A program made the translations under genes and the position numbers. Shown one piece after another: positions 26,670 through 32,674 of a stretch of 45,308 bases of DNA. A model generated the notes under the pieces. The model was given only the letters and a program-made list of their open reading frames with translations, was not told the DNA's origin and ran no database searches. Source of the stretch: Pseudomonadota bacterium (GTDB lineage: Bacteria; Desulfobacterota; JAPLJL01); assembly GCA_026388655.1 (NCBI GenBank), contig JAPLJI010000085.1, positions 1 through 45,308 on the forward strand, read 5' to 3'. Within the stretch, counting starts at the first letter, position 1; each line of letters begins with the position of its first letter.

Positions 26670-27659
26670 ATGATTATCCTGATGAAGAAATCGGCCACCG
26701 AAACCGAGATTAAAGCGGTAATTGATAAAATCCGGAAGACCGGATTGGAGCCCCATTTGGATAAGGGGATCTCCACCCTGATCGGGATCCGGGGAGATAC
26801 CGCCCGGCTGGAGGAAAATGAATTCCTCCTGGAAGGAGTCGACCAGGTAAAACGGGTTTCCTCCAAATATAAGGAAGTCAGCCGGGAGTTTCACCCGCAG
26901 AATTCCCTGATCAAGGTGGGAGACGTCACCATCGGGGGAGGAAAGCCGGTGATCATGGCCGGCCCCTGCGCCGTGGAAACCCGGGAGCAGCTCCTGGAAA
27001 GCGCCCGGGGGGTGAAAGCCGCGGGAGCCCAGATCCTCCGGGGCGGGGCTTTCAAACCCCGCACCAGTCCTTACGCTTTCCAGGGCCTGGGGGAGGAAGG
27101 CCTCAAGCTCCTCGCCGAAGCCCGGAAAGAGCTGAAAATCCCCATCGTGACGGAAATCATGAACATCACCCAGATGGATCTTTTCGCCAAATACGACATC
27201 GATTGTTACCAGGTCGGCGCCCGGAATATGCAGAACTTCGACCTGCTTAAGGAACTGGGCAAGATCAAGAAGGCCGTGCTCCTGAAACGCGGCCCCTCCG
27301 CCACGATCGAGGAATTCCTGCTTTCGGCTGAGTACATCCTGAGCTTCGGTAATCCCCGGGTGGTTCTTTGCGAAAGAGGCATCCGCACCTTTGAAACCGC
27401 TTACCGGAATGTCCTGGATCTGAGCGCGGTAGCCATGGTTAAAAACCTGAGCCACCTTCCGATCATCGCCGACCCGAGTCACGCCACCGGGGTCAAGAAG
27501 CTGATTCCCCCGATGAGCCGGGCCGCCCTGGCCGCCGGGGCGGACGGGCTCCTGATCGAGGCGCATATCAACCCCAAAACCGCTCTTTGCGACGCCAGCC
27601 AGCAACTCACGATCAAGGAATTCCAGGACCTGATGGAACAATTAAAGGGCCTGATGTAA
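26670..27659 (+). CDS. aroF: 3-deoxy-7-phosphoheptulonate synthase (DAHP synthase)
   Basis: A 329-residue enzyme that starts the shikimate pathway by joining PEP and erythrose-4-phosphate. The N-terminal 75 residues are the ferredoxin-like regulatory domain found in the Thermotoga-type (I-beta) enzymes. The barrel begins at [10 protein letters not shown] near 94. Family motifs are [43 protein letters not shown] and [10 protein letters not shown]. The acidic metal-site end is [20 protein letters not shown]. An ATG at 26670 has accggagg upstream. It is separated from the other aro genes here and is on the opposite strand. Confidence 0.95.
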
Positions 27660-27666
27660 TGGGGGG

Positions 27667-28308
27667 ATGACCCTTCCGGGGATTTTTTTCAGCGCCTTCG
27701 TAATCGGACTTTCCGGGGCCATGGTCCCCGGGCCGGTCCTGGTTTACGCCATCACCTCGAGTTCCAAGCGGGGTTTCTGGGCCGGTCCCCTCCTCGTCCT
27801 GGGGCACGGAATCCTGGAGGGTCTGCTCCTGGTTCTCCTCGTCCTGGGTTTCGCCAAATTCCTCAGTCATGATCTTTTCAACGGGATAATCGCCCTGGCC
27901 GGAGCGGTCGTGCTTACGATAATGGGGATCGGGATGATCCGGGAGGCCAGAACCGCCAGTCTCAATCTTGAAACCGATGCCAAGATCTCTTCCCTCCACC
28001 CGGTCCCGGCCGGGATCCTGACCTCCATCTCCAATCCTTACTGGATCATCTGGTGGGCCACGATCGGGCTCAACTTCGTCTCACTGTCCCGCGCCCATGG
28101 AAACCTGGGAATCCTGACTTTTTTTTCCGGACACATCCTGTCGGATCTTTCCTGGTACAGCCTGATTTCGGCTCTGGTTACCTTCGGGCGCAAGCTGATC
28201 AGCGACCCGATTTACCGGGGAATCCTGGTCGGTTGCGCCCTGGCCCTCATTGGTTTCGGAGCATATTTCGGCCTGGCGGGAATCAATCTCCTGTTTCTGA
28301 AATATTAA
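27667..28308 (+). CDS. LysE/RhtB family exporter
   Basis: A 213-residue inner-membrane protein with about six hydrophobic segments. GAMVPGPVLVYAITSSSKRGFWAG near residues 18-41 is the family's conserved P-G-P region and loop. NPYWIIWWATIG near 122 matches its second conserved region (SNPK-x-x-xF). LysE-type proteins export amino acids or related solutes. It starts seven bases after aroF, so the pair is probably co-transcribed, but I cannot say if an aromatic compound is the substrate. Confidence 0.85.
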   Translation: MTLPGIFFSAFVIGLSGAMVPGPVLVYAITSSSKRGFWAGPLLVLGHGILEGLLLVLLVLGFAKFLSHDLFNGIIALAGAVVLTIMGIGMIREARTASLNLETDAKISSLHPVPAGILTSISNPYWIIWWATIGLNFVSLSRAHGNLGILTFFSGHILSDLSWYSLISALVTFGRKLISDPIYRGILVGCALALIGFGAYFGLAGINLLFLKY

Positions 28309-28359: not shown

Positions 28360-29427
28360 ATGAAATCTTGGATCGTCCTTAAAGATGGAACTGCATTCGC
28401 AGGGGTTAACCATAACCTCCCCGGAAAGGCTTTTGGGGAGGTTGTTTTTTATACGGGGGTGGTCGGCTACCAGGAAACTCTGACCAACCCGGTTTACGCC
28501 GGCCAGATCCTGACCCTCACCTATCCCCTGATCGGCAATTGCGGCGTCAATGATGAAGATCCCGAGTCTCCCCGGGCCTGGCCCCGGGCCCTGGTCGTGC
28601 GGGACCTCTCCCCGATCCACAGCAATTTCCGGGCCCAGAACAGTTTTGACGAATTCCTGGAAAAACACCGGATCGTTTGCATCAAAGACGTTGATACCCG
28701 GGCCCTCACTATCCACCTGCGCGAGCACGGGGAAATGACCGGGATCGTGGGCACCGACGGCTCCGACCCGGAAAAATTGAAACAGGAGCTGTCCCAATCG
28801 GCCTCTCCCTATGCCCAGAATCTGGCGGCCGAAACCGGGTCCAGGGAAATCCGGGAGGAAAAAGCCTCCGGCAAATATAAAATCGCCATTGTCGATTTCG
28901 GGGTTCAGAAATCCCTGCTCGGGCAGCTCCTGGATCTGGGAGCCACCTGGATTTGTTATCCGCCCGGTTCCGGCCCGGAAAAGATCCTCGAAAAAAATCC
29001 CGACGGTATTCTCCTCAGCAGCGGCCCGGGCGACCCGGAAAAACTTCCCGAGTCGGTGAAAAACGTGCGCGCGCTCCTCGGGAAGAAACCCATCCTCGGG
29101 ATCGGCCTCGGCCACCAGCTCCTGGCCCTGGCGGGCGGCGCCCGCACTTTCCGGATGAAACTCGGGCACCGGGGGGTTAATTACCCGGTGGTGGAAACCG
29201 GGAAAAAACAATCCCTGATCACCTCCCAGCATCACAGCTTCTGCGTAGACGCCCAGTCCCTGCCCCGAAACCTGGCCGTTACCCACACCCACCTGAACGA
29301 CAAAACCATCGAGGGAATCGCCTTCACCGACAAGCCGGCTCTCTCGATCCAGTTCTTCCCCACCCGGGATGAATATTATCGTCCAAACCCCTGCCTGCAG
29401 AAATTCCTAGAGCTCTGCAAGGGATAG
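28360..29427 (+). CDS. carA: Carbamoyl-phosphate synthase small subunit with a dead glutaminase site
   Basis: A 355-residue protein with the full CarA architecture: N-terminal CPSase domain ([20 protein letters not shown]) and class I glutamine amidotransferase domain ([13 protein letters not shown], then [16 protein letters not shown]). The nucleophile Cys of G-x-CLGHQ is Gly249. The catalytic His and Glu of the family's HPE are Phe333 and Thr335 (QFFPT). Asn and Gly of the glutamine pocket (NHGF) are His291 and Ser293 (QHHSF). All three catalytic residues are therefore lost while the fold and the frame are intact. It likely keeps a structural role in CarAB with free ammonia as the nitrogen donor. 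It starts with an ATG at 28360 and is 4 bases from carB. Confidence 0.92.
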
Positions 29428-29431
29428 CGCC

Positions 29432-32400
29432 ATGCCTAAGCGCAATGACATTCATAAAATTCTGATTATCGGCTCCGGCCCGATCATCATCGGCCAGGCC
29501 TGCGAATTTGATTATTCCGGTTCCCAGGCCTGCAAGGCTTTAAGAGAGGAAGGCTACGAGATCGTCCTGATCAACTCGAACCCGGCCACGATCATGACCG
29601 ACCCGCGAATGGCCGACCGCACCTATATCGAGCCTATCACCCCCGAGATGGTGGAAAAAATTATCGCCCGGGAGCGGCCGGACGCCATCCTTCCCACCCT
29701 GGGCGGACAGACCGGCTTGAACCTCGCGGTCTTCCTGGCCCGCGAGGGGGTCTTCGACCGTTACGGAGTGGAAGTGCTCGGGGCCAGCGCCGAGGCGATC
29801 AGCCGGGCCGAAGACCGCGAGCTCTTCCGCGACGCCATGCAGGAGATCGGGCTGAAGGTGCCCAAGAGCGGAATCGCCCGTTCCCTGGAAGAGGGAATCA
29901 AAATCGCCCAGGAAATCGGTCTGCCGACCATCATCCGCCCGGCTTTTACCTTGGGCGGCTGGGGCGGCTCGATCGTGTACAACGCCCAGGAGCTTGAGCC
30001 CGCCCTGAATAAGGGTTTAAACATCAGCCCGATTCACCAGGTCCTGATCGAGCAATCGGTCCTGGGCTGGAAAGAAATTGAATTCGAGGTCCTCCGGGAT
30101 TCGGTGGACAACGTCATCATCATCACCTCGATGGAAAACGTGGATCCGATGGGGGTGCACACCGGGGATTCCACGGTGGTGGCTCCTTCCCAGACCCTGA
30201 CCGCGAAGGAATACATGGAATACGTCAATTATTCCAAGCGGATCATCCGCAAAATCGGGATCACCGGAGGGGGGGCCAATATCCAGTTCGCCGGCAACCC
30301 CGATAACGGCGAAATCGTGATCATCGAGGTCAACCCCCGGCTCTCCCGCAGCTCGGCCCTGGCTTCCAAAGCCACGGGTTTCCCGATCGCCCGGGTGGCC
30401 ACCAAGCTGGCGGTTGGTCTCACCCTGGACGAGGTCATGAACGACGTCACCGGCATCACCAAGGCCTTCTTTGAACCCACGGTGGATTACTGTGTCTTTA
30501 AAATCGCCCGCTTCACTTTCGAGAAATTTCCCCAGGCCGATCCCGTCCTGAATACCGCCATGAAATCCGTGGGTGAGGCTATGGCCATCGGACGCAATTT
30601 CAAGGAATCCCTGCAGAAGGGAATCCGGTCCCTGGAGATCAGTCGTTACGGTTTCGGTTTCGACGGCAAGGACGTCGACCCCGAAAGCATCGATCAGGTC
30701 AAGCTCCGGGAAAAACTCATCGTTCCCAACGCCGATCGTTTCTTTTATATTAAGACCGCGTTAGAAAAGGGGATGTCCGTGGAGGAAATCAGCAACCTTT
30801 CCAAGATTGACCGCTGGTTCATATATCAAATGGAGGAAATCGTGGACCTAGCCAAGGAGATCGGCGCTCACCGGGGCCAAGAACTCAATTCCGTCCCCCG
30901 GGAAATCCTGCACCGGGCCAAGCGCGACGGGTTTTCGGATATCCAACTCGCTTATCTATTGGGTCGAAAAGAAGATGAGATCTTCCAGCTCCGGCAGGAA
31001 TTGGAGATCCGCCCGGTCTACAAGCTTCTGGACACCTGCGCCGGGGAATTCCGCGCCGAGCATCCCTATTTCTATTCCAGCTACGATCAGAAAGACGAAA
31101 ACCGGGCCAGCGGAAAGCCCAAGGTCATCGTCCTCGGGGGCGGTCCCAACCGGATCGGCCAGGGAATCGAATTCGACTATTGCTGCGTGCACGCCTCCTA
31201 TGCGATCCAGGAACTCGGGTATGAATCCATCATCATCAACTCCAACCCGGAAACCGTCAGTACCGACTACGACACCTCCACCCGGCTCTACTTCGAACCC
31301 CTGACCCGGGAGGATGTTCTCGCCGTGGTGGCGGTCGAAAAACCCCTCGGGGTAATCGTTCAGCTCGGCGGCCAGACTCCCCTGAACCTGGCCGTGCCCC
31401 TGGAAAAAGCGGGGGTGAAAATCCTCGGGACCACGCCCGACTCCATCGACCGGGCCGAGGACCGGGAGCGTTTCCGGGCCCTCCTGAAAAAACTGAACCT
31501 CTTCCAGGCCCCCAATGCCTCGGCTTTTTCATTCGAGGAAGCCAAGGGGATCGCCAAGGAAATCGGCTACCCGGTGATCGTCCGGCCCTCCTACGTCCTG
31601 GGCGGGCGGGCGATGGAAATCGTTTATGATGACAAGGAACTCGAGAAGTTCATGCAGCTCGCCATCAAGGTTACCCCGGAGCACCCGGTGCTGGTGGATA
31701 AATTTCTGGATGACGCCATCGAGGTGGACGTGGACGCCATTGCGGACGGCGGAACCGTGGTCATCGCCGGGATCATGGAGCACATCGAGGAGGCCGGGGT
31801 CCACTCGGGGGACGCGGCCATGTCCCTTCCCCCCTACTCCCTGGGTCGGAAGATCGTCAACCAGATCCGCGAGCAGACCGTTGCCCTGGCTCTGGAGCTA
31901 CAGGTTAAAGGTCTGATGAACGTCCAGTTCGCGGTCAAGGATAATCTCATCTATGTCCTCGAGGTCAACCCCCGGGCTTCCCGGACCGTCCCCTTCATCA
32001 GCAAGGCGATCGGGGTCTCCCTGGCCAACCTCGCCACCATGGTCATGTGCGGGAAGACCCTGAAAGAACTGAAATTCACTAAGGAAGTGAAGATCGATCA
32101 CGTGGCCGTGAAGGAATCCGTCTTCCCCTTCATCCGTTTCGCCGGGGTGGACACCATCCTGGGACCGGAAATGAAATCCACCGGCGAGGTCATGGGGATC
32201 GACTCTACCTTCGAAATGGCCTATGCCAAGAGCCAGATCGCGGCCGGGACCAACCTGCCGCTTTCCGGCAATGTTTTTATCAGCCTGCGGGACAAGGATA
32301 AGCGCCCGATGATTTCCGTCGCCAAGCGCCTCTCCGATCTGGGATTCCAGATCCTGGCCACAGAAGGCACCGCCGAGATTGTCCGGATTAACGATAGCCC

Positions 32401-32674
32401 GGTCAAAGGGGTTTTAAAGGTTTCCGAAGGCCGTCCCAACATTACCGATTACATCAAGAACCGGGAAGTGCACCTGATTATTAACACCCCGAGCGGGAAA
32501 ACCCCCAAGCAGGACGAAGTCGCCATCCGCACCAACGCGATCGCCTATAGTATTCCCCTGATCACCACCACCGCCGGGGCCGCCGTGGCCGTGGGAGCGA
32601 TCGAGGCCATGCGCAAAAAAGGCATCACCGTCAAGACCATCCAGGAATACCACGCCGAAATCCAGAAAACGTAA
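29432..32674 (+). CDS. carB: Carbamoyl-phosphate synthase large subunit
   Basis: A 1080-residue synthetase that makes carbamoyl phosphate from bicarbonate, ammonia and two ATP for arginine and pyrimidines. It has two homologous ATP-grasp halves: [20 protein letters not shown] near residue 18 and [20 protein letters not shown] near 575. ATP-binding motifs GGWGGSIVY and GGRAMEIVY are both present, as are [18 protein letters not shown] and [18 protein letters not shown]. The C-terminal allosteric MGS domain runs from about 935. All catalytic segments look normal, unlike the small subunit. It is transcribed with carA. Confidence 0.96.

Follow-up and report, generated by a model that had tools for sequence, protein, structure and literature searches.

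A CarA paralog without a glutaminase triad and its CarB partner: a candidate ammonia-dependent carbamoyl phosphate synthetase in Desulfobacterota

Introduction

The carbamoyl phosphate synthetase (CPS) of E. coli, a CPS II, is encoded by a two-subunit carAB operon. A 2018 review gives glutamine as the donor for all bacterial CPSases, and the E. coli enzyme needs very high ammonia (PMC6245113). The halves of CarB are functionally equivalent and activity of a half CarB has been described (PMC6245113); Methanobrevibacter has a minimal CPS that works as a dimer (PMC6022934).

The animal enzyme CPS1 (CPS I) uses free ammonia. It is a single fused chain that needs N-acetylglutamate, has Ser in place of the catalytic Cys and a tunnel blocked by Gln318, and retains its inactive GATase-like domain as structure (PMC4655335). 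Ammonia-dependent CPSs outside of the animals include those of stramenopiles and other algae, which are eukaryotic and share a clade with the animal urea-cycle enzyme (PMC7542463). In E. coli, blocking or perforating the glutamine tunnel yields variants that no longer use glutamine but have normal activity with external ammonia, and variants of the ammonia gate lose both activities (PMC4655335). CarB residue C232 is one of the three conserved gate residues, by equivalence with CPS1 C648 (PMC4655335).

The DNA analysed here (termed the window) is a 45,308-nt stretch, contig JAPLJI010000085.1 of assembly GCA_026388655.1, from a bacterium placed by GTDB in the Desulfobacterota. The initial annotation proposed that its CarA has lost the glutaminase triad and that its CarAB uses ammonia, which might suit a life on amino acids where ammonia is plentiful. 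The altered small-subunit gene and its relatives are termed carA*, and the adjoining large-subunit gene carB*.

The carA* open reading frame

carA* is found at positions 28360–29427 (+ strand) and encodes a 355 aa homologue of the CPS small subunit, CarA family (TIGR01368). The TIGR01368 score is 360 bits (cut-off 307), and both PF00988 and PF00117 are matched. Its nucleophile motif is ILGIGLGHQ, its glutamine pocket has QHHSF, and its His-Glu site is QFFPTRDE.

Alignment to E. coli CarA places the codon ggc (positions 29104–29106, + strand; Gly249) at nucleophile Cys269. The codons for H291-H292-S293 (29230–29238, +) stand at the canonical glutamine-pocket residues N311-H312-G313, and those for F333-P334-T335 (29356–29364, +; ttc at 29356, acc at 29362) replace the catalytic H353-P-E355. 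The next segment, R336-D-E-Y-Y-R-P (29365–29385, +), is in place of the canonical ASPGPHD loop with the tunnel-mouth residues G359/P360. The triad, its codons, and the pocket changes His291 and Ser293 are as initially annotated. In E. coli numbering, the glutaminase active-site changes are C269G, H353F, E355T, N311H, G313S, K202Q and N240S. With Gly, Phe and Thr at the Cys-His-Glu positions, where 72/72 canonical CarAs have the triad, this protein is not predicted to be a glutamine-hydrolysing CarA. It nonetheless scores above the cut-off of the NCBI equivalog model for “glutamine-hydrolyzing” CPS; thus enzymes of this type are hidden in databases, which is an annotation trap.

The canonical set (n = 72) was drawn from this phylum together with E. 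coli, Amphritea, Tistrella, two actinobacteria, several Bacillota, Ilyobacter and Parabacteroides. K202, N240, C269, N311, H353 and E355 are each present in all 72 and altered in all five CarA* sequences (the relatives are described below). G313 is conserved in 60 of 62 canonical CarAs. The tunnel-mouth residues G359, P360 and D362 are also gone from CarA*, as is F367, the window having Tyr at G359. Ten losses at near-invariant columns are common to the five CarA*, and these are distributed as 10 of 41 columns in the GATase domain and 0 of 27 in the N-terminal domain (Fisher p = 0.0045); the last four of the ten cover four sequences, because one contig (G068) stops before them. Where the canonical HPEASPGPHD was, CarA* displays P-x-R (5/5), extended to P-x-RDE in the four with the C-terminus present. 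The N-terminal domain is kept, as stated earlier, but the oxyanion text is kept only in part: the invariant N240 is Ser in the window.

An AlphaFold (AF2) model of CarA* has a pLDDT of 93. Its best structural match is E. coli CarA (Z 50, rmsd 1.4 Å) and the second best is CPS1 (Z about 45). CarA* is therefore predicted to retain the CarA fold in both domains, with the active site lost. A loss of Cys in all GATases of the genome is ruled out: a TrpG-like protein and PyrG keep both the Cys and the HPE.

The catalytic Cys is lost in all five CarA* (C269G), as it is in the inactive GATase domain of CPS I. Unlike CPS1, CarA*B* is bacterial and consists of two genes; Cys, His, Glu and more are lost, and R265 and C232 of CarB, both kept by CPS1, are changed. 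carA* and carB* are separate rather than a single fused polypeptide, and CarB* branches with the CarBs of its phylum.

CarB* and the tunnel residues

carB* (positions 29432–32674, + strand) begins 4 bp past carA*, the two forming an operon pair, and encodes a full-length CPS large subunit. It has two ATP-grasp halves, an oligomerisation domain and an MGS-like domain, and shares about 56% identity with E. coli CarB. Every ATP-grasp catalytic residue examined is retained in both halves, and most of the allosteric-domain residues examined are canonical. CarA*B* has the two-gene organisation, the folds and the ATP-grasp residues of E. coli CarAB. It differs in that CarA* is without the triad, glutamine pocket and tunnel-mouth residues, and CarB* is without R265 and C232. 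The initial description of CarB as normal holds for the catalytic ATP sites but not for these two tunnel residues, which are Val and Thr in the window.

R265 is Val or Ala in 5/5 CarB* and Arg in 45/45 CarBs that have a canonical CarA. C232 is Thr in 5/5 CarB* and Cys in 46/46 other CarBs. CarB* therefore lacks tunnel residues that are conserved in glutaminase-coupled CarBs. The sole exception at R265 in the reference set is a Monoglobus CarB without an adjacent carA, which belongs to the orphan CarB clade discussed below. When compared within the phylum only, CarB* showed 29 specific sites. Addition of CarBs from other phyla and of human CPS1 cut these to nine, and the nine alone were used; MEN, VVAP, EVN and others proved to be ordinary variants. 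The nine near-invariant sites are altered in all five CarB* relative to 46 other CarBs from several phyla, and include C232 and R265.

According to work attributed to Kim and Raushel in 2004, R265 of CarB and P360 and H361 of CarA are reportedly part of the tunnel wall, and perforation diverts glutamine-derived ammonia. CarA*B* resembles the E. coli tunnel mutants (CarA G359F, PDB 1m6v, and the Kim and Raushel perforations) in the loss of P360 and R265 and, in the window, in having Tyr at G359. In contrast to these mutants, CarA*B* carries its changes naturally; they are fixed across a clade and occur together with the loss of the catalytic triad. Human CPS1 retains the equivalents of R265 and C232, thus loss of R265 is not required for ammonia use. 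By analogy with the E. coli gate variants, the altered C232 could also be harmful to ammonia use.

Relatives and origin of CarA*

Two other members of the genus, “bacterium STA_72” (G002) and a Lac Pavin sediment MAG (G001), have a carA* of 85%–86% identity to that of the window with identical active-site changes. Recurrence of the substitutions in independent assemblies rules out a sequencing error, as the initial annotation had maintained. Among 395 genomes searched within the phylum, two more distant relatives came to light: G068 (60% identity, motifs GIGLGHQ/QFYPSR) and G198 (46% identity, motifs GIGLGHQ/QFIPQRDE). Most matches to the GIGLGHQ pattern are due to chance. A scan of genome contigs with two N-terminal patterns matched the two same-genus records only, class-wide searches around G198 and G068 gave no additional CarA*, and no plasmid record was more than about 43% identical to the CarA of the window.

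In a tree, which the initial annotation had suggested for CarAs lacking these residues, the five CarA* form one clade with support of 100/100 against 62 canonical CarAs. The clade is also recovered at 100 from the N-terminal domain alone, a region that is without any trait column. Within the genus, dN/dS is 0.12–0.16 for CarA* (0.13–0.14 for its GATase domain) and 0.04–0.08 for CarB*. These low values indicate purifying selection, and a pseudogene in decay is therefore ruled out for CarA* within the genus.

The closest relatives of CarB* are in the same phylum, and in a quick tree CarB* nests inside the canonical CarBs of that phylum, the forks that bear on this having SH-aLRT values of 99 and 91. 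CarA*B* therefore likely arose by duplication within the phylum. Its occurrence is scattered, i.e. one genus and, from two further families, a single genome each. Horizontal transfer, differential loss and contamination of the MAGs could each account for this. Contamination of the MAGs is 6% for G068 and 8% for G198, and their CarA* contigs may be foreign to the assigned organisms. The CarB* of G198 shows, as assembled, a deletion/frameshift near codon 33 (L136:8700–9270), and this genome also has a canonical carAB.

A second CPS locus in the genus

A second canonical carA in the genome had been named initially as a finding that would speak against the proposal, and one is present. In the window genome (G000) it is on contig C14 and displays GICLGQQ at the nucleophile. 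The open reading frame (L034:402–1397, − strand) has its frame shifted near the contig end, where 16 bp are duplicated in tandem (ccacgggttctgcgtg occurring twice). The duplication is missing from G001 and G002, and is probably an assembly fault; the canonical carA of G002 is intact. Since a canonical carA is present, CarA*B* is a paralogous second CPS and not a conversion of the only one. Of the ammonia-using CarAB first proposed, the part that assumed such a conversion is thus lost; the triad loss, purifying selection and tunnel losses are in its favor.

The CarB beside the canonical carA is truncated. In G002 (L036:9436–11103) and G001 (L071:576–2243) it has 555 aa, corresponding to the N-terminal half, and ends at a stop followed by CTP synthase. 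In G000 the half-CarB gene is divided between two contig ends (C14 and C92). A separate C-terminal half was found in none of G000, G001 and G002, and the genus has no full-length CarB other than CarB*. As the canonical CarA is paired with a half CarB alone, the full-length CPS of the genus is the glutaminase-less CarA*B*. The half CarB retains R265 and C232, which would be in keeping with a glutaminase still supplying it. By analogy with the small enzymes mentioned above, half CarB and canonical CarA may form a natural minimal CPS with the half CarB as a homodimer.

G068 (90% complete) shows no CPS apart from CarA*B* and no canonical CarA. It has two carbamoyltransferase-family genes, homologues of ornithine/aspartate carbamoyltransferase, as do all genomes checked.

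By eye, candidates for a pyruvoyl-dependent arginine decarboxylase, an agmatinase and a YjbQ-like protein were seen in the region of the canonical carA (L034, L036).

CarBs without a CarA

A separate full-length CarB occurs in one Monoglobus record and, within the phylum, in at least 15 genomes (L139, L140, L141, L145–L156, L164). There is no CarA-like open reading frame within the 8–17 kb around each of these. G012 (98% complete) has no CarA anywhere in its genome, and G034 (94% complete) gave nothing but TrpG-like matches. R265 is Gln in 16/16 of these orphan CarBs.

The orphan CarBs form a deep, separate clade, and the tree places them apart from CarB*, giving no support to a shared ancestry of the two. 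R265 was lost independently in the orphan clade and in CarB*. This convergence is the best support for the view that R265 is dispensable where no glutaminase is present.

Possible function of CarA*B*

With the glutaminase site and the matching tunnel residues lost, free ammonia is probably used. We put the probability at roughly 0.7 that CarA*B* is an ammonia-dependent CPS with a pseudo-glutaminase. The second, paralogous CPS would use bicarbonate, ATP and free ammonia to form carbamoyl phosphate. In this reading CarA*, with its N-terminal CarB-binding domain and fold kept, may act as a structural and possibly regulatory subunit, and CarB*, with intact ATP-grasp sites, would catalyze both phosphorylations. 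Ammonia would be taken up from the solution, close to where the CarA*/CarB* interface is remodelled, and would not come from a glutamine site. The residue losses, the single clade, the purifying selection, the intact CarB* catalytic residues and the operon pairing are observed; the substrate, complex formation and entry route are inferred. Since the ammonia demand of the E. coli CPS is very high, a useful CarA*B* would need a better Km.

The presence of a canonical carA in the genus, intact in G002 and accompanied by a CarB of merely 555 aa, raises the question of whether its product feeds CarB*, with CarA* as a competing or regulatory subunit that turns glutamine use off. This is unlikely: CarB* is without R265 and C232, which are kept wherever a canonical CarA partner is present, CarA* is the cotranscribed neighbor of CarB* with a conserved N-terminal domain, and G068 carries CarA*B* with no canonical CarA detected. 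A product or signal other than carbamoyl phosphate for general use, from a neofunctionalised ATP-grasp enzyme or regulator, would agree with the divergence throughout the family and with neighbors that differ among lineages. It seems quite improbable for a protein about 56% identical to E. coli CarB whose catalytic residues in both ATP-grasp domains, and most allosteric residues examined, match canonical CarB, in genomes where consumers of carbamoyl phosphate are present.

The least probable reading is that CarA*B* is a decaying duplicate and that canonical CarA with half CarB works as a homodimeric minimal CPS. The precedents are a dimeric small CPS (PMC6022934) and half-CarB activity (PMC6245113); in addition, the half CarB has the canonical residues, and the G198 CarB* is frameshifted as assembled. 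Against this are dN/dS values of 0.04–0.16 across the genus, losses that are restricted to the glutaminase site and tunnel and not scattered, and the lack of any other full-length CarB in the genus besides CarB*.

An ammonia-dependent CarA*B* would share its nitrogen source with the stramenopile and other algal enzymes, from which it differs in being bacterial. In the literature searched, which was of open-license papers only, we found no account of a bacterial CPS whose CarA is degenerate. A broader proposal is made with somewhat less confidence: that CarA*B*, a bacterial CPS of two subunits, depends on ammonia, conserves a pseudo-glutaminase and evolved separately from animal CPS I, the tunnel residues of the partner subunit being lost in a coupled manner, and that, together with the R265-less, CarA-free CarB lineage, it points to glutamine-independent CPSs being commoner in bacteria than annotated. 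The CarA* clade offers a testable counter-example to glutamine as the universal donor of bacterial CPSs. It may parallel, in bacteria, the way in which the urea-cycle enzyme arose, and it has natural counterparts of the E. coli tunnel mutations.

Gene neighborhood

All three genus members have a LysE-type exporter upstream of carA*; in the window (positions 27667–28308, + strand) it is the gene directly preceding carA*, with a 51-bp gap. A DAHP synthase (26670–27659, +) ends 7 bp before the LysE gene and possibly belongs to the same transcription unit. Between 16 and 29 kb of the window, the aromatic amino acid genes aroA, prephenate dehydrogenase, a HisC-like aminotransferase, chorismate mutase and DAHP synthase lead to carA*B*. 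The neighbors of carA*B* vary by lineage (DAHP synthase/LysE, or a GMP-synthase ATPase subunit) and none is common to all. In G068, a stand-alone GMP synthetase ATPase subunit without a glutaminase domain is directly upstream of carA* (L073:1012–1953), and a distinct glutaminase-like subunit match is present at G068:C436.
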